64,000 nucleotides of DNA. Origin: Agrococcus terreus. Lineage in GTDB: Bacteria; Actinomycetota; Actinomycetes; Actinomycetales; Microbacteriaceae. Both the position numbers and the translations under genes were made by a program. Under the pieces are notes generated by a model. The model had not been told where the DNA came from and searched no databases. It worked only from the letters and a program-made list of their open reading frames with translations. Positions 944 to 54,084 of the stretch are shown here, one piece after another (position 1 is the first letter of the stretch; each line of letters starts with the position of its first letter). The stretch lies in the NCBI RefSeq assembly GCF_014645235.1, contig NZ_BMLM01000001.1:186001-250000 (forward strand). Direction: 5' to 3'.

Positions 944-1831
944 ATGATCGACATCGTCGGCCCGTTCGCGCTGCCCTTCCTGCAGCGCCCGCTGCTGCTG
1001 CTGCTCGTGCTGGCGGTCGCCGCCGCGACCGTGGGGCTGCTCGTCAACCTCCGCCGCCTCGAGTTCATCGGCGACGGCCTCACCCACGCCGTCTTCCCCG
1101 GCCTCGTCATCGGCTTCGTCATCGCCGGCGAGCCGGGACTCCTGCCCGGCGCGCTCGTCGCCGCCGTGCTCGCGGCGCTCGCGCTCACCGCCGTCGAGCG
1201 GCGCGGCACGGGCGGCGAGACCGGCATCGCGATCCTCCTCACCTCGTTCTTCTCGGTGGGCGTCGTGATCGTCTCGACCCGCAGCGACTACGCGGGGCAG
1301 CTGCAGGAGCTCTTCTTCGGCCGCCTGCTCACGATCACGGATGCGCAGCTCGGCTGGTCGGCGGCGATCGTCGCGCTCGCCGTGGCGCTCGTGGCGCTCG
1401 GCTGGCGGCAGCAGGTGTTCCGCGCGTTCGACCCGGCGGGCGCCGAGGCCGCGGGCCTGCGCACGCTGCGGCTCGACCTCGTCGCGAACATCGCGGTCGG
1501 CCTGTTCGTCGTGGCCGCGGCCTCGTCGGTGGGCGTGCTGCTCGTGCTCGCGGTGCTCATCGTGCCCGCCGCGGCCGCGCGGGGCGTCACCGGGCGCATC
1601 GGCGCCGCGGCGCTCGTCGCGCTCGTCTTCGCGGCCGTCACCGGCTGGCTCGGCCTCGCGGTGTCGTTCCACCTCTCGGTCGAGCTGGGCGTCGACGCCG
1701 CGCCCGGCGCGACGGTGGCGACGCTCATGGTGGCCGCGTACCTGCTCGTGCTCGGCGCCGGCGCGCTCGTGCGCCGCGCCGGCTCCGCCCGCTCGCGCGC
1801 GGGCGTCGCCGCAGGGACGGCGGCCGCCTGA
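944..1831 (+). CDS. Zinc/manganese ABC transporter permease 1 (ZnuB family)
   Basis: Integral membrane permease of 295 aa with about eight hydrophobic helices, belonging to the ABC-3 (ZnuB/TroC/MntB) family that moves Zn2+ or Mn2+ across the cytoplasmic membrane. The family's FIGDGLTHAVFPGLVIGF segment near residues 44-61, which contacts the ATPase, is clear, as is the VLLVLAVLIVPAAAAR segment near 200. It starts 7 nt after the ATPase stop, and its TGA overlaps the ATG of the second permease (TGATG). A low-complexity Arg/Ala tail ends the protein. Confidence 0.92.
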   Translation: MIDIVGPFALPFLQRPLLLLLVLAVAAATVGLLVNLRRLEFIGDGLTHAVFPGLVIGFVIAGEPGLLPGALVAAVLAALALTAVERRGTGGETGIAILLTSFFSVGVVIVSTRSDYAGQLQELFFGRLLTITDAQLGWSAAIVALAVALVALGWRQQVFRAFDPAGAEAAGLRTLRLDLVANIAVGLFVVAAASSVGVLLVLAVLIVPAAAARGVTGRIGAAALVALVFAAVTGWLGLAVSFHLSVELGVDAAPGATVATLMVAAYLLVLGAGALVRRAGSARSRAGVAAGTAAA

Positions 1832-2673
1832 TGGACTACTTCTCGCTCGCCCTCGTCGAGGCCGTGCTCGCGGGCGCCCTCGCCGGGCTCACGGGGGTGC
1901 TCGTGGTGCTGCGGCAGCGCGCGTTCTTCACCATGGCGCTCACGCACGCGACCTTCCCGGGCGCCGTCGTCGCGGTCATGCTCGGCGTCGCCGCGCCCAT
2001 CGGCGCCGCGGTCGCGGCCGTCGCGCTCATCGGCGTCGCCGCGCTCGTCGGGCGGGTGCGCAGCCAGGGCTCGGCGACGGCGAGCGGCATCATGCTCACG
2101 CTCGGCTTCGCGCTCGGCTCGCTCGCGCAGTCGCTCGCCCACGGCCCGGTCGACGTCGAGTCGATGCTCACGGGATCGATCCTCGCGACCGACGCCGGGC
2201 AGGTCGCGCTCACCGCGGTCGTGCTCGCGCTCGTCGCCGCGCTGTGGCTGCTCGCCGGCCGCCGGCTCGTCTTCGACTCCTTCGACCGGGGAGGCGCGGC
2301 GGCCGCGGGGCTGGCGCCGCTCGGCACCGAGGTGCTCGCGCTCGCCGGCATCGCGGCGACCGTGGTCACCATCCAGCCCGTCGTGGGCGCGATCCTCGGC
2401 GTCGCGCTCGTCGTGGCGCCCGCCGCCGCCGCGCGCCGGCTCGTCGGCTCGGTGGGCGGGATGCTGTGGCTCGCCCCGGTGCTCGGCGCGGCCTCCGGTG
2501 TCGCGGGCCTCTGGATCTCGCGGTCGCTCGGCGTCTCGGCCGGCGGCGCCATCACGCTCGTCGCTGCGCTCGTGTTCGCGGCGACGCTGCTCGTGCCGCA
2601 GCACCGCGACGCGGGCCGGGTGGGCGGCCGGGAGCGGCCGGCGCCGGCGCGGGCTACGGTGGGGGCACCATGA
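1831..2673 (+). CDS. Zinc/manganese ABC transporter permease 2 (ZnuB family)
   Basis: Second ABC-3 family permease, 280 aa, with about eight membrane segments. It carries the matching coupling segment FFTMALTHATFPGAVVAVML near residues 32-51 and a GAILGVALVVAPAAAARR segment near 190. Two dissimilar permeases in a row suggest a heterodimeric channel, as in manganese/zinc systems with two permease genes; that is inference. Its start is in the TGATG overlap with permease 1, and its stop overlaps the ATG of the Zur-like regulator (ATGA), so all the transporter genes and the regulator are likely one mRNA. Confidence 0.92.
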   Translation: MDYFSLALVEAVLAGALAGLTGVLVVLRQRAFFTMALTHATFPGAVVAVMLGVAAPIGAAVAAVALIGVAALVGRVRSQGSATASGIMLTLGFALGSLAQSLAHGPVDVESMLTGSILATDAGQVALTAVVLALVAALWLLAGRRLVFDSFDRGGAAAAGLAPLGTEVLALAGIAATVVTIQPVVGAILGVALVVAPAAAARRLVGSVGGMLWLAPVLGAASGVAGLWISRSLGVSAGGAITLVAALVFAATLLVPQHRDAGRVGGRERPAPARATVGAP

Positions 2674-3065
2674 CGGAGACGAGGCGGCGCACGACGCGCC
2701 AGCGCGAGGCGGTGCGGGCGGCGCTGACGGCCAACGACGAGTTCGTCTCGGCGCAGACGCTCCACCAGTCGATGCGCGATGCGGGCGAGACCGTCGGCCT
2801 CGCCACCGTCTACCGCGCGCTCGCGACCCTCGCCGAGGACGGCGAGGCCGATGCGCTGCAGTCGGGCGGGGAGCAGCTGTATCGCGCCTGCACCCCCACG
2901 CACCACCACCACCTCATCTGCCGCAGCTGCGGCCGCACGGTCGAGCTCGAGGCGGCCGAGGTCGAGGCGTGGGCGCGCCAGGTCGCGTCCGCGCACGGCT
3001 TCGTCGAGCCCGAGCACGTCGTCGACATCTTCGGCCTCTGCGCCGACTGCGCCGCGAAGCGCTGA
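2670..3065 (+). CDS. zur: Fur-family transcriptional regulator, probably Zur
   Basis: A 131-aa Fur-family repressor. The N-terminal winged helix contains VGLATVYRALATLAEDGEAD, the DNA-reading helix of the family. A histidine cluster (THHHHLICRSCG) and the pairs CRSCG and CADC form the regulatory and structural zinc sites. Fur, Mur and Zur share these, so the zinc assignment rests on position: it is translationally coupled (ATGA) to a ZnuB-type permease. It would repress the zinc uptake genes when Zn2+ is plentiful. No promoter of its own is visible, which makes it autoregulated with the transporter whose promoter lies outside the window. Confidence 0.85.
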   Translation: MTETRRRTTRQREAVRAALTANDEFVSAQTLHQSMRDAGETVGLATVYRALATLAEDGEADALQSGGEQLYRACTPTHHHHLICRSCGRTVELEAAEVEAWARQVASAHGFVEPEHVVDIFGLCADCAAKR

Positions 3066-3175
3066 GCCGCGGGCCTCGAGCCGGCTGAGCCGCGGCCGCC
3101 GGCCGGTCGCCCTCCTGTCCACAGGCGCCCCGCCGCTCGCGGCGCGCCCCCAGCCGTCGCTGTGAGACTGGCGCC

Positions 3176-3189
3176 GTCCGTCGACGGAC
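3176..3189. promoter_or_regulatory. 14-bp perfect palindrome upstream of membrane protein gene
   Basis: GTCCGTCGACGGAC is a perfect palindrome located 41 bp before the GTG of the next gene, in the 164-bp gap after zur. It could be an operator. No -35/-10 pair is convincing and the rest of the gap holds nothing else recognisable. Confidence 0.25.
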
Positions 3190-3229
3190 GGATCCCGCAG
3201 CGCCCGTTCCAGCACCACAGGAGGCACCG

Positions 3230-4174
3230 GTGACCCAGCCGCCCAGCGCGTTCGGCGCACACCCGACCGAGCCCGCCGCCGAGCCGCGGCCCGCCCGCAC
3301 GCCGCGGCGCATCATGGGGATCCAGCCGGTGCTGCTCGTCGGCATCTGCCTGCTCGCGATCGTCTCGCTCATCACCGTCGTGCTCATCTTCATCGGCGAC
3401 TTCGAGAGCCAGGCCGCGCGCGTCGTGTGGACCGTCGTCGTGTTCCTCGTCTTCACGGGGCTGCTCGCGCTCGACCTCGTGCTCGCGCGGCGCTCCGCGA
3501 CCCCGCTCGTCATCGGCGTCGCCGCGAACACGTACCTGCTCGCGGTGCTCATGATCGCGATCTGGGTGCGCGGCGGGACGTCCGACGACGACAGCCTCAT
3601 CGGCTACGACAGCGGATGGCTCTTCGCCGAGCTGTTCGGCATCGTGCTGCTCACGATCCTCGTCGTGCGCGCGGCGGCCGCGGGCGCGTGGGGGCTCATC
3701 GTGCTCGGCCGCCGGGCGCGGGCCGCGTTCGCGTACGTCGTCGGCCTGGTCGCCGCGTCGCTGCTGGGGCTCGTCGGCGTGCTGCTCACCCTGCACTTCG
3801 CGATCGACGCCTTCGGCATCGAGGTGGGGGAGTGGTACTGGCGCTCCACCGTGGCGGCGGTCGTGATCTCGGCGCTCGCGGCGTCGATCACGGTGCTGCT
3901 GTTCTGGAACCGCCGCAACATCGACTGGCAGGAGGCCGAGGCGCGCGGCGAGCACGTCGGCCCCCGGCAGCCCACCGGGCCGGTGCAGCCGCCGATGCAG
4001 GCGGCGTCGATGCAGGGCGCGCCCGCGCAGGCGGGTGCGGTGCCGCCTGCGGCGGCGCCCTGGCCGCCCGCCCCGCAGCCCGACGCGCAGGGTCGCCTCC
4101 CCTGGCCGACCTACGCCGACGGCACGCCGCTGCCGATGGGCCCCGACGGCCAGCCGGTCTTCCCGCAGCACTGA
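3230..4174 (+). CDS. Uncharacterised membrane protein with proline/glutamine-rich tail
   Basis: A 314-aa protein of unknown function. It starts at a GTG preceded by an AGGAGG at good spacing. Residues 1-26 are a short polar, proline-rich cytoplasmic segment; five or so hydrophobic helices follow between about 30 and 230. The C-terminal ~85 residues are a disordered Pro/Gln/Ala tail ending in WPTYADGTPLPMGPDGQPVF. Such tails often act as docking segments in actinobacterial envelope proteins, but nothing specific is recognisable. It lies alone between zur and the ribosomal operon and has its own ribosome binding site. Confidence 0.75.
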   Translation: MTQPPSAFGAHPTEPAAEPRPARTPRRIMGIQPVLLVGICLLAIVSLITVVLIFIGDFESQAARVVWTVVVFLVFTGLLALDLVLARRSATPLVIGVAANTYLLAVLMIAIWVRGGTSDDDSLIGYDSGWLFAELFGIVLLTILVVRAAAAGAWGLIVLGRRARAAFAYVVGLVAASLLGLVGVLLTLHFAIDAFGIEVGEWYWRSTVAAVVISALAASITVLLFWNRRNIDWQEAEARGEHVGPRQPTGPVQPPMQAASMQGAPAQAGAVPPAAAPWPPAPQPDAQGRLPWPTYADGTPLPMGPDGQPVFPQH

Positions 4175-28018: not shown

Positions 28019-28068
28019 CGCGCGTCGCGGCCCCTCCACCTGGCCGGGCGCACGCTTCCCGTCGCCCA

Positions 28069-28201
28069 GGGGCCACGTCCTGCTGCTGATCGGTCGCTCC
28101 CTGCGACGAGTGGTCGCGTCGTGCTGGGAGTGGTCACCTCCTGCAGCAGGACGTGACCGCTGATCGCGCGGATCGACCAGTCACGAGCAAGCAGTGACCA
28201 C
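28069..28201. repeat. 20-bp-period GTGGYCRC array, copy 1
   Basis: In the 257-bp gap between convergent genes, GTGGTCGC (28110) and GTGGTCAC (28130) lie exactly 20 bp apart. Weaker copies fall at ~28069 and ~28090, and inverted copies follow, ending with GTGACCAC at 28194. Linkers contain CTGC/GCAG pieces. The same design recurs at 52.67-52.80 kb. Confidence 0.6.
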
Positions 28202-28218
28202 TGGGCATGAGAGACACG

Positions 28219-28255
28219 GCGACGGGGCCGAGGCGCGCTGCCTCAGCCCCGTCGC
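28219..28255. terminator. Bidirectional terminator between fgd and the ABC exporter
   Basis: 16-nt arms (28219-28234 and 28240-28255) pair with one mismatch around a 5-nt loop, 21 bp beyond the ABC permease stop on the minus strand. It can serve both convergent units. Confidence 0.7.
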
Positions 28256-38010: not shown

Positions 38011-39171
38011 ATGACGCAGACCGCCATCATCGTCGGAGCAGGGATCGGCGGGCTCGCCGCCGCGCGGGCGCTCGAGGACGCCGGATGGCGGGTCCGGGTG
38101 CTGGAGGCCGAGGATGCCGTGCCGACGCCCGGCGCGGGGGTCGTGCTCACCCGCAACGGCGTCGCCGCGCTCGACGCGCTCGGGATCGGCGCCGAGGTGC
38201 GCCGAGCCGCCGTGCGCTCGATGCCGCAGGGCGTCGCGACCGACCAGGGCGCCCCGCTCCTCCGTGCCTTCCAGTCGCCCTCGAGCGCCGTGCTCGGCAT
38301 CCATCGGGCGACGCTGCTCGAGCTGCTGCGCGGCGACCGCGAGGTCGAGACCGGCAGCCGCGTGCTCCGCGCGACCGACGGCGAGCAGGGCCGCCCCGCG
38401 GTGCTCGTCGAGCGCGCCGGCGCCGAGCCCGAGCGCATCGAGGCCGACCTCGTCGTCGGCGCCGACGGCATCCGCTCGGCCGTGCGCCGCTCGCTGTGGC
38501 CCAAGGCCGCGCGGCCCGACTACACGGGCGCGACCTGCTGGGAGGCCGTGCTCCCGGCCGGCGCGATCGCCGGCGTCGCGGACGCCCGCGGCATGCGGCA
38601 GATGGTCGGCCAGGGCACCGAGCTCGGCTGGATGCCGATCGACGGCGAGCGCGTGCACTGGTGGGCCATCGCCCACTCGCGGCTCGGCCGCGCGGAGGCC
38701 GACGAGCTCGCCGCCGTCCGCGCGTGGGTCGGCGACTGGTCGCCGGAGGCGCAGGGCCTGCTCGCGGGCACGCCGGCGGACGCCGTGCAGCGCCGGGACC
38801 TCTGGTACCTGCCCACCTCGATGCGCTCCTTCCGTCGCCCGGGCGTCGTGCTCGTCGGCGATGCGGCGCACGCGATGGCGCCGATGCTCGGCCAGGGCAC
38901 GAGCCTCACGCTCGAGGACGCCGCGACGCTCGGGGCCCTCGTCGACGACCGCCCGCTCGACTCTGCCCTCGACGGCTACGACGACGCGCGCGTCGACCGG
39001 ACGCAGCGGTTCCAGCGCCGCTCGCTGCGCCTGCTGCGTGCCACCACCGACCGCCGCCTCCCGGCGCTCGTCGCCGCCCGCAACGGCGCCGCGAACCTCG
39101 TGCCGGTGCTCGCGGCCGAGATCGTGCTCGACTGGATGCTGCACTGGCGCGCCCCGCGCCGGCGCGACTGA
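38011..39171 (+). CDS. FAD-dependent monooxygenase (PHBH/UbiH-like)
   Basis: 386-aa class A flavin monooxygenase. The FAD fold GAGIGGLAAARALEDAGW near 9-26, the DG motif LVVGADGIRSAVRR near 149, and GDAAHAMAPMLGQGTSLTLEDA near 288-309 are the three group signatures. The substrate, probably an aromatic or quinone-like compound, is unknown. Its last codons and stop fall inside the first unit of a 14-bp tandem repeat. Confidence 0.9.
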   Translation: MTQTAIIVGAGIGGLAAARALEDAGWRVRVLEAEDAVPTPGAGVVLTRNGVAALDALGIGAEVRRAAVRSMPQGVATDQGAPLLRAFQSPSSAVLGIHRATLLELLRGDREVETGSRVLRATDGEQGRPAVLVERAGAEPERIEADLVVGADGIRSAVRRSLWPKAARPDYTGATCWEAVLPAGAIAGVADARGMRQMVGQGTELGWMPIDGERVHWWAIAHSRLGRAEADELAAVRAWVGDWSPEAQGLLAGTPADAVQRRDLWYLPTSMRSFRRPGVVLVGDAAHAMAPMLGQGTSLTLEDAATLGALVDDRPLDSALDGYDDARVDRTQRFQRRSLRLLRATTDRRLPALVAARNGAANLVPVLAAEIVLDWMLHWRAPRRRD

Positions 39172-39240
39172 GCCGGCGCGACTGATCCGGCGCGACTGAG
39201 CCGGCGCGACTGAGCCGGCGCGACTGAGCCGGCGCGGCCG
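39161..39240. repeat. 14-bp tandem repeat spanning a stop codon
   Basis: Five units of GGCGCGACTGAGCC (the second reads GATCC) run from 39161 to 39230, with a partial sixth. The monooxygenase stop (TGA 39169-39171) is in unit one. The array ends 9 bp before the convergent Nudix stop. Confidence 0.9.
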
Positions 39241-51778: not shown

Positions 51779-52534
51779 TCAGACGGCCGTGTAGCCGCCG
51801 TCTGCGAGGTGGTAGCTGCCGGTGATGAAGCTCGCGTCGTCCGAGAGCAGGAACGCCGTGAGCGCCGCGATCTCCTCGGGGCGGCCGAGGCGGCCGAGCG
51901 GGTGCTTCGCGGCGATCGCCTGCATCGCGTCGGCGTCGAGGTTCGCCTCGAGCAGCGGGGTGCGGATGTAGCCGGGGCCGACCGCGTTGATGCGCAGGCC
52001 CTGCGCGCCGTACTCGGCGGCCGCGTTCTTCGTGAGGCCGACGACCGCGTGCTTCGTGGCCGTGTAGGCGCTGCTCATCGGGGCGGCGACCGAGCCGTGG
52101 ATCGACGCCATGTTGACGATGGCCGACTCCGTCGGGTGCTCGAGCATCGCAGCGATCTGCGCCTGCATGCCGTGGAAGACGCCCGTGAGGTTGATGTCGA
52201 CGACCTTCTGCCACGAGACGGGGTCGACGTCGGCCGTGGGGGCGGGGGCTCCGCCGATGCCGGCGTTGTTCACCGCGAGGTGGAGCGCGCCGTACGCGTC
52301 GACCGCGGCCTGGACGGCCGCCTTCGCGTCGTCGGCCGAGGCGACGTCCTGCTGGAAGGCGGTCGCGGTGCCGCCGGCGCCCTCGATCTCCGTGACGACG
52401 CGCTGCGCCGCGTCGAGCGCGATGTCGGTGACGAGCACCTTCGCGCCCTCGCTCGCGAGCCGCTTCGCGATCGCCTCGCCGATGCCCGAGCCGCCGCCCG
52501 TCACGAGCGCCACCTTGCCGTCGAACCGTGCCAT
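51779..52534 (-). CDS. Short-chain dehydrogenase/reductase (SDR)
   Basis: 251-aa classical SDR. Cofactor motif TGGGSGIGEAIA near 12-23, NNAGIGG near 88, catalytic Ser in NMASIHGS, YTATK near 155 and GPGYIRTP near 186. An Asp after the second strand (VTDIALDAA) favours NAD+. It probably oxidises a sugar or sugar alcohol, given the ribokinase downstream and the rhamnose genes upstream; the substrate is open. The 323-bp region before it holds the 20-bp-period repeat array. Confidence 0.88.
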   Translation of the reverse strand: MARFDGKVALVTGGGSGIGEAIAKRLASEGAKVLVTDIALDAAQRVVTEIEGAGGTATAFQQDVASADDAKAAVQAAVDAYGALHLAVNNAGIGGAPAPTADVDPVSWQKVVDINLTGVFHGMQAQIAAMLEHPTESAIVNMASIHGSVAAPMSSAYTATKHAVVGLTKNAAAEYGAQGLRINAVGPGYIRTPLLEANLDADAMQAIAAKHPLGRLGRPEEIAALTAFLLSDDASFITGSYHLADGGYTAV

Positions 52535-52666
52535 GACCACTTCCTCCATCCCGGCGCCGCCGTCGGTGCCGCTGCTGGATGCAACGCTACGCCTGTCGCT
52601 TTGCTTCCGCGCGCACCGGATCCGCGGTCCTCTCGCTGCAGCCTGCTCCAGCCCGTCCGGGATCGA

Positions 52667-52801
52667 GTGGTCACTTCTGCCATCGAGTGGTCACGATGTG
52701 CTGCATCTCGCGACCACAGTCGACCGATCGTGGCCACTCGATGCAGGAAGTGGCCACTCGATGCAGGAAGTGGCCACTCCCCACAGGAAGTGGCCACTCG
52801 A
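52667..52801. repeat. 20-bp-period GTGGYCAC array, copy 2
   Basis: GTGGTCAC at 52667 and 52687, an inverted GCGACCAC near 52710, then GTGGCCACT at 52730, 52750, 52770 and 52790. Units 52730 and 52750 are identical over 20 bp (GTGGCCACTCGATGCAGGAA). It fills the 323-bp gap between the lactate-oxidising enzyme gene and the SDR gene; no ORF is credible there. Confidence 0.85.
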
Positions 52802-52857
52802 GTCCTGCGGCGCGGGCGGAAGCGACGCGGCGGCGCGAGCAGTTCAGCGAAGGCTGA

Positions 52858-54084
52858 TCAGCGCGGGCGGAGGCTCGTCAGCTGGGTCACGTGCTGCGGG
52901 CCGAGCTCCTCGAGCGAGGTGACGCCGAGGAGGCGCATGACGCGCGAGGTCTCGTCCGACAGGATCGACAGCATCCGGTTGACGCCCGCGCGGCCGCCGG
53001 CCATGAGGCCGTACAGGTAGGCGCGGCCGACCTGCACGTAGCGGGCGCCGAGCGCGACCGACGCGACGACGTCGGCGCCCGACATGACGCCCGTGTCGAC
53101 GTGCACCTCGAGGTCGCGGCCCACCTCGCGCACCACCTCCGGCAGCAGCAGGAACGGCACGGGCGCGCGGTCGAGCTGGCGGCCGCCGTGGTTCGAGAGC
53201 TGGATCGCGTCGACGCCGAAGTCGGCCATGCGCTTCGCGTCCTCGACCGACTGCACGCCCTTCACGACGAACTTGCCCTTCCACAGCGAGCGGATCTCGC
53301 GGAGGTCGTCCATGTCGATCGACGGGTCGAACATCGTGTCGAGCAGCTCGCCGACGGTCCCGTCCCAGTTGCGGATCGCCGCGAACTCGAGCGGCGGCGT
53401 CGTGAGGAAGTTGATCCACCACTCCGGGCGAGGCAGCGCGTCGAGCACGGTGCCGGGCGTGAGCTGGGGCGGGAACGACATGCCGTTGCGCTTGTCGCGG
53501 TGCCGGGCGCCGGCGACGGGGGTGTCGACGGTCACGAGCAGCGTGTCGAAGCCCGCCGCGGCCGCCCGCTCGACGAGCTCGTACGAGCGGTGCCGCGCCT
53601 TCATCATGTACAGCTGGAACCACAGGCGGCCGTCGGGCGACGCCTCGCGCACGTGCTCGGGGCTCGTGGTGCCGAGCGTCGAGAGCGCGAACGGCACGCC
53701 GTACGCGGCGGCCGCCGCCGCGCCCGCCCGCTCGCCCGCCGCGTGCATGAGGCGCGTGAAGCCGGTCGGCGCGATGCCGAACGGCAGGGCCGAGCGCTGG
53801 CCCAGCACGTCCCACCCCGTGTCGACCGCCGTCACGTCGCGCAGCACCGACGGGTGGAACTCGACGTCGCGGAACGCGTTGTAGGCGCGCTGCAGGCCCA
53901 CCTCGCCCTCGGCGGCGCCCGCCGTGTAGTCGAACGGGCCCTTGGGCGTCCGCCGCTTCGCGATGGCGCGGAGGTCCCAGATCGTCTGCGCCTTCGCGAG
54001 CCGCTGCTGCGCGGGGTTCCGCAGCGGGTTCTCGAAGCGCATGAGGTCGCGGAGGGCCGCGATGTCGGGCAGCTGGCGTCGCAT
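52858..54084 (-). CDS. lldD: FMN-dependent alpha-hydroxy-acid dehydrogenase (L-lactate dehydrogenase LldD-like)
   Basis: 408-aa TIM-barrel flavoenzyme oxidising L-lactate or a related 2-hydroxy acid to the keto acid. [20 protein letters not shown] near 102, [10 protein letters not shown] near 150, [19 protein letters not shown] near 177, and the active-site [16 protein letters not shown] near 293-308 with the catalytic His-Gly-Gly-Arg. It follows the rhamnose genes on the same strand, where it would turn the lactate made from lactaldehyde into pyruvate. GGAAGG lies 9 nt before ATG 54084. Confidence 0.9.

Follow-up and report, generated by a model that had tools for sequence, protein, structure and literature searches.

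A family of phased, mirrored 20-bp unit arrays at gene 3' ends in Agrococcus, read as candidate sites for a DNA-binding protein

Introduction

In Agrococcus terreus, a row of short GTGGYCAC motifs, 20 bp apart, fills the gap between an FMN-dependent dehydrogenase gene (FMN_dh) and a gene of the SDR type. What is this array, and does it belong to the gene that follows it or to the gene that precedes it? The stretch of DNA analysed here, the window, spans 64,000 nucleotides (C1:186001-250000 of the own genome, G000), and coordinates refer to it unless a contig is named. The array is the second of two in the window and is called copy 2. A first-pass annotation had described it as a seven-motif array at a promoter-type site, with a palindromic core that a protein could occupy along one DNA face, and knew of no named element with such a layout. 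No paper describing such arrays was found in our own search among open-licence PMC papers, in agreement with that statement.

Structure of the array and the gap that holds it

A motif scan of the window placed GTGGYCAC at 52667, 52687, 52730, 52750, 52770 and 52790, and a unit scan added a degenerate inverted core, GCGACCAC, at 52710; the seven units of the first-pass annotation were all found where it had put them. The complete array covers 52665-52799 and consists of seven 20-bp units, two on the plus strand followed by five on the minus strand, with a dyad at 52702 and an overlap of 5 bp between the two arms (Table 1). The claim that two units are identical over 20 bp was confirmed by an exact-repeat search (52730-52749 and 52750-52769), and Tandem Repeats Finder (TRF) reported 52730-52801 as a repeat of period 20 with 3.6 copies and a score of 116. 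Unit-like motifs spaced at 20/21 bp formed same-strand chains of up to four members in the window, compared with a maximum of two in 100 dinucleotide shuffles. Copy 2 shares a 103-bp stretch with other copies of the own genome, and the asymmetric centre of this stretch runs in the same direction as transcription of the flanking genes.

The FMN_dh gene closes a run of genes, among them those for an FGGY kinase and an aldolase-SDR fusion. Copy 2 ends 58 bp past the FMN_dh stop codon and about 115 bp ahead of the SDR start, and the gap belongs to the 3' end of the FMN_dh gene as much as to the region 5' of the SDR gene. Promoters and T-run terminators were considered as the content of this gap; a consensus scan yielded neither in it.

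Table 1. Features of the window, and own-genome loci with an array in the corresponding gap of another species.
Feature	Position	Strand	Basis
Copy 1, same family, between convergent genes (28018 on +, 28276 on -); array also in the gap of G017	28067..28203	+	Unit scan, G017 comparison
PfkB kinase gene, after the SDR gene	50760-51722		Gene calls, Pfam
SDR gene (PF13561/PF00106), downstream of copy 2	51779..52549	-	Gene calls, Pfam
Stretch without counterpart in G017 (about 5 bp only there)	52619..52855	.	Comparison with G017
103-bp stretch, gapless alignment with 12 other own-genome copies	52657..52759	-	Alignment, orientation, model R1 match
Plus arm of copy 2, two 20-bp units (52665-52684, 52685-52704) of GAGTGGTCAC-N4-TGC type	52665..52704	+	Unit scan
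Minus arm of copy 2, five 20-bp units (starts 52700, 52720, 52740, 52760, 52780)	52700..52799	-	Unit scan, exact 20-bp repeats
FMN-dependent dehydrogenase gene (PF01070, FMN_dh), 3' end precedes copy 2	52858..54084	-	Gene calls, Pfam
Array in gap shared with G017	own C1 768k
Array in gap shared with G017, G006, G018	own 1552k
Array in gap shared with G017, G006, G018, G008 (single hairpin in G013)	own 1553.8k
Array in gap shared with G001, G022	own 1352k
Array in gap shared with G006, G017	own C2 280k
Array in gap shared with G005	own 1907k
Array in gap shared with G023	own C2 714k

Unit, spacing and dyad

From 87 units of the own genome the consensus GAGTGGTCRC-N4-TGC-N3 was derived, with G5, G6, C8, A2 and G16 near-invariant and variable linker positions at 11-14 and 18-20. 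Within the unit, about one helical turn separates the conserved sub-motif GGTC from the other one, TGC. The palindrome GTGGCCAC, from which the first-pass annotation had argued for protein binding, turned out to be a local variant and its symmetry incidental: among the commonest unit classes at 13 own loci, GTGGTCAC and GTGGTCGC units prevailed over it by 46 to 13.

The spacing is strongly phased. Among 459 steps between same-strand neighbours, 394 were of 20 bp, 58 of 21, six of 22 and one of 17 (452 of 459 at 20 or 21 bp), and none was of 19 bp, a distance that the count permitted, units being required to have a neighbour at 19-22 bp. The junction of the two arms is equally strict in the aligned own copies, where the last plus unit and the first minus unit start 15 bp apart in 13 of 13, so that the cores lie 21 bp apart. 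In an automated count the 15-bp offset was also the commonest class in G000 (10/17), G008 (14/27), G021 (10/19 listed) and G017 (5/11); the next class in G000 and G017 was 35 bp, i.e. one more unit, and cores readable on both strands account for at least part of the remaining offsets. In genomes whose arms are long and homogeneous, among them G001, G006, G014, G016 and G018, the same count did not show the 21-bp dyad. The 20/21-bp steps, the single turn between GGTC and TGC and the strict dyad all fit the earlier suggestion that the sites are phased along one DNA face.

A dispersed family in Agrococcus

Copy 2 belongs to a dispersed family. Model R1, built on 13 own copies that can be aligned without gaps over 103 bp, identified 15 strong loci in the 2.83-Mb own genome (among the matches listed, in which opposite strands of one array are entered separately) and had matches in at least 18 of 24 Agrococcus genomes. 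With GGTCRC as an exact three-unit pattern, 13 of the 24 gave matches; the pattern reversed as a control gave almost none (0 in most genomes, singly up to 4 matches, in G011 and G023). The number of units differs between copies and between species. In a brief look at the match lists for enrichment near origin or terminus, matches lay toward contig ends in G001 and mid-contig in G021.

The two-unit pattern GAGTGGYCAC was found in one of 396 genomes of a phylum sample, namely the own genome, and in four of 299 genomes of a family sample, all of them Agrococcus. Beyond the genus, two-unit matches numbered 40 in the uncultured bin-0811 (G727) and three in Kineosporia mesophila. A contig scan for three units returned 38 stretches (6 Agrococcus, 12 bin-0811 and 20 others); in the 27 of these that were examined, the motif hardly extended past the searched pattern outside bin-0811 and K. 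mesophila. Plasmid and phage collections contained no match to the copy 2 array. The bin-0811 loci (L067, L082, L090, L092, L093 and others) carry near-identical GAGTGGCCACTGGGCACCGC 20-bp arrays, many of them at most 30 bp from where a called gene ends; convergent gaps make up 8 of 12 there, as called by an Agrococcus-trained gene caller that probably missed genes in this bin.

Presence and absence of arrays among relatives

The window is syntenic with contig C1 of G017, the nearest relative tested, and the FMN_dh and SDR genes are each 92% identical between the two genomes. In G017 the two genes are 91 bp apart with no array, and own positions 52619-52855 have no counterpart. This stretch comprises the array with about 46 and 56 bp of flank, and carries GATC at both edges, possibly a 4-bp target duplication (a single case). 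We inspected 13 loci in relatives, taken from 23 matches outside the own genome. The SDR gene adjoins FMN_dh in four of them (G017, G004, G007 and G019, with gaps of 91, 87, 69 and 91 bp), and copy 2 is absent from all four, which makes it dispensable there. The prospect that arrays would be missing from close relatives, which the first-pass annotation had named as part of a refutation of its reading, came true for copy 2; for the family as a whole it did not.

Eight of the 15 strong own loci, among the matches listed, have an array in the corresponding gap of another species (Table 1). The G017 stretches compared yielded no counterpart of own loci 906k, 950k, 1007k and 1139k, and own locus 358k aligned in G017 as separated flanks only. 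Simple perfect hairpins on the same base occur in G013 and G009. The one in G013 (L238:1500-1564) is a perfect 23-bp hairpin, CGATTGGTCACGAAGTGCTGGCC, in a convergent gap orthologous to that of an own array, and is possibly the simple ground state of the family.

An AbiEi/DUF559-like gene with weak MTES_1575/DUF559 matches (L011:1698-2564, own C1 at about 1552.9k; counterparts L218, L172, L204, L185, L223 and L238) is bordered by arrays on both sides in G000, G017, G006 and G018. It evolves faster than its neighbour (74 vs 91% DNA identity between own genome and G017) and is split into two reading frames in G006. This gene was considered as the source of a protein reading the arrays. Only 4 of 108 flanking proteins match DUF559/MTES_1575 and the gene is split in G006, so it was retained as a lead only.

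Sequence dialects

Five gaps carry arrays in both the own genome and G017 (that at 28.1 kb in the window, own C1 768k, 1552k, 1553.8k and C2 280k). In all five the own units are of the GTGGTCRC type and those of G017 of the GTGGCGNC type; in the copy 1 gap, G017 has an array with core GTGGCGAC/GTGGCGGC. At the G017 loci included in the unit count, 53 of 53 detected units had a CGxx core, and all six arrays of at least three units in 415 kb of G017 were CG-type. Own units were TCxx or CCxx in 62 of 78 cases (six commonest classes, 13 own loci), and a 400-kb sample of the own genome away from known arrays contained no array of either type. Further dialects were seen in G005 (CG-type), in G018 and G010 (CC-type), and in G008 and G021 (mostly CT or TT at positions 3-4). 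As judged from the sequences compared, position and geometry persist while the core sequence changes by species.

Some arrays depart from this pattern: own C1 263.9k carries the CG type, as arrays of G017 do, GTGGCGCC units occur at own 1007k, and GAGCGGTC units occur at G017 L235. Different loci of one genome have linkers partly in common, and dialects could therefore also come from copying between loci.

Placement relative to genes

Genes were called with a codon model trained on the window, and array-bearing gaps were compared with those other gaps in these loci that measured 60 bp or more. The 57 array-bearing gaps, in 50 loci, were convergent in 32 cases, tandem in 22 and divergent in three; the corresponding numbers for the other gaps were 6, 28 and 26 (Fisher tests, p = 1e-7 for convergent and p = 1e-6 for divergent gaps). 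In tandem gaps the array was closer to the 3' end of the upstream gene (median 52 vs 96 bp, p = 2e-4). The asymmetric centre was codirectional with the genes in eight of nine own copies in tandem gaps (two-sided p = 0.039), the exception being L053. The flanking genes were diverse; 108 proteins matched 172 Pfam families, none of which was represented in more than five proteins.

These data speak against the promoter-type site proposed for copy 2. Divergent gaps are avoided (3 of 57 array gaps vs 26 of 60 others), and G017, which has both genes without the array, yet retains the SDR-proximal GCGTTGCATCC.

The copy 1 gap also holds a separate hairpin at 28219-28255. Elsewhere in the window, a 14-bp tandem repeat of GCCGGCGCGACTGA (39158-39236, 5.6 copies, 96% matches) overlaps the end of a plus-strand gene and precedes a convergent minus-strand gene, and is thus another 3'-end array with a different unit.

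Discussion

Spacing is strict while sequence drifts between species, and the arrays therefore look like landing sites for a DNA-binding protein. We tentatively read them, at somewhat less than an even chance of being right, as a genus-wide family of oriented site arrays for a putative lineage-specific trans-acting protein, which would form a two-way boundary at transcript ends and whose dialects would have arisen by co-evolution. Such a protein would nucleate on the central palindrome or dyad and extend outward over both arms on one DNA face, and the resulting two-way complex could act as a boundary or roadblock separating convergent or successive transcription units. The role of the arrays is probably that of a boundary at transcript ends. 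That position, spacing and symmetry are kept while the core is replaced points to a trans-acting reader with drifting specificity, and the species dialects may be read as co-evolution of the sites with it; own 263.9k, own 1007k and G017 L235 break the pattern and are evidence against a pure dialect model. Also counting against this reading are the linkers partly common to loci of one genome, the lack of the 21-bp dyad where arms are long and homogeneous, the absence of copy 2 from relatives and the pairing excess in some unoriented sets. In gaps such as that of copy 1, moreover, the separate hairpin could do the terminating. The stronger proposal, a new kind of chromosomal boundary element in which a dyad-nucleated protein polymerises along two phased mirrored arms at transcript ends, sites and protein co-evolving fast enough for sister species to differ in dialect at the same positions, we regard as unlikely.

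A dispersed repeat of the REP/BIME kind, selfish or neutral, is the main rival, and we consider it a serious possibility if a doubtful one. Units would spread and expand by slippage, recombination or a transposase and survive where they are least damaging, downstream of stop codons, and dialects would result from turnover and interlocus copying. The 3'-end and convergent placement matches that of REPs as described in PMC3733652, unit number varies by copy and species, the gap between FMN_dh and SDR has an array in the own genome, possibly flanked by GATC, and none in relatives, and the own copies have a single asymmetric 103-bp consensus in common, which is what descent from one element would produce. 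Against this, steps and dyad are retained while linkers diverge, and several arrays hold the same gap across species with altered cores, unlike a simple insertion. Mobilisation by RAYT was rejected; family PF01797 was found in 0 of 24 Agrococcus genomes, the control search having detected it in 5 of 14 known genomes, and as judged by this family the engine typical of REPs is lacking. A cargo-free miniature transposon derivative, with several opposed transposase sites at its ends, is very improbable. Tn7/Mu/IS21-type transposon ends carry several transposase sites in opposite orientation, and the opposed arms of about 20-bp sites and the 237-bp presence/absence difference with GATC at both edges recall them. 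That difference, however, runs 46 and 56 bp past the units, unit number is variable, a fixed terminal sequence was not seen, a target duplication is suggested in one case only, and the plasmid and phage collections gave no match.

The mirrored arms could instead act in RNA, folding into a long 3'-UTR hairpin that terminates transcription or protects the transcript, an explanation to which we assign a low probability. It was taken up because of strong folds (MFE z-scores of 13 own copies against shuffles, -2.1 to -6.4 forward and -0.8 to -6.3 reverse); the codirectional centre in eight of nine tandem gaps and the simple hairpins of G013 and G009 also agree with it. It was lowered because the oriented set showed no clear covariation. 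In the 13 oriented own copies, standard pairs amounted to 73.2% against 73.6% in shuffles (342 of 500 as high), offset -20 was matched by 338 of 500 shuffles and the mirror by 125 of 500; further pair types numbered 41 vs 36.2 in shuffles (24/500 shuffles), a point in its favour. Unoriented sets beat all 500 shuffles in G000 at offset -20 and in G008 at offset +21, and offset -21 was reached by 14 of 500 shuffles for G008 and for G008 with G021; the G000 signal, however, was gone once the copies were oriented. Mirror pairing in G021 and G017 fell below shuffles (500/500), and the mirror register showed no pairing excess over shuffles across genomes. Nor does a hairpin account for the core common to loci of one genome, and the copy 2 gap has no terminator-like site with a T run. 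A search of Rfam returned one match, MIR1846, at 27.8 bits against a gathering score of 77.5, which was taken as chance. With no clear covariation in the oriented own set, we favour DNA sites over an RNA role on these comparisons.

The arrays have partial counterparts in several known systems. REP/BIME elements of the GTAG and CGTC families are described in PMC3733652 as species-specific families of short units, dispersed and opposed, that lie downstream of genes and in convergent gaps. The Agrococcus arrays too lie after genes and are enriched in convergent gaps (32/22/3 vs 6/28/26), but their units are 20-bp direct repeats, most of them not palindromic in themselves, arranged as two mirrored arms whose steps and dyad are fixed; the own consensus unit is neither a palindromic hairpin nor GTAG/CGTC-tagged, and RAYT was not found. 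DNA uptake sequences of Neisseriaceae, as described in PMC3630211, share with the arrays a short motif with species dialects, and have a co-evolving reader, ComP, and often form inverted pairs at terminators; they differ in numbering 1543 to 3770 per genome and in not being described there as phased tandem arrays. The MerR-like protein BldC of Streptomyces forms cooperative head-to-tail multimers on direct repeats of varying number, but these are one helical turn apart, AT-rich, AATTXXXX(C), and located at promoters (PMC5859096). Compared with the BldC sites so described, the Agrococcus arrays have two turns per step, are GC-rich, form opposed arms and lie at 3' ends. The ram motif of Bacillus resembles GTGACC/GGTCAC. 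The centromere-like ram sites are dispersed chromosomal sites for RacA, an oligomerising DNA-binding protein, and differ in being densest near the origin (PMC6593407).

If a reader protein is involved, the arrays could serve as a model for the co-evolution of site families and DNA-binding proteins, and perhaps offer GC-rich bacteria a protein-based means of keeping convergent genes apart. Should the arrays prove selfish, they would still form a REP-like family, one that lacks the RAYT transposase typical of REPs, and one would have to ask what drives their spread and homogenisation.

Further hairpins and motif pairs were also observed. A second, simpler hairpin family in the own genome starts with GTGGTCAC (GTGGTCACGTGTGGCCCTC...GAGGGCCATTTGTGACCAC), with two members in tandem at L054:1499-1630 (own C2 at about 562.5k). 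In G053, from another family of the order, there are six TGGTCAC...GTGACCA pairs, each exactly 37 bp long.
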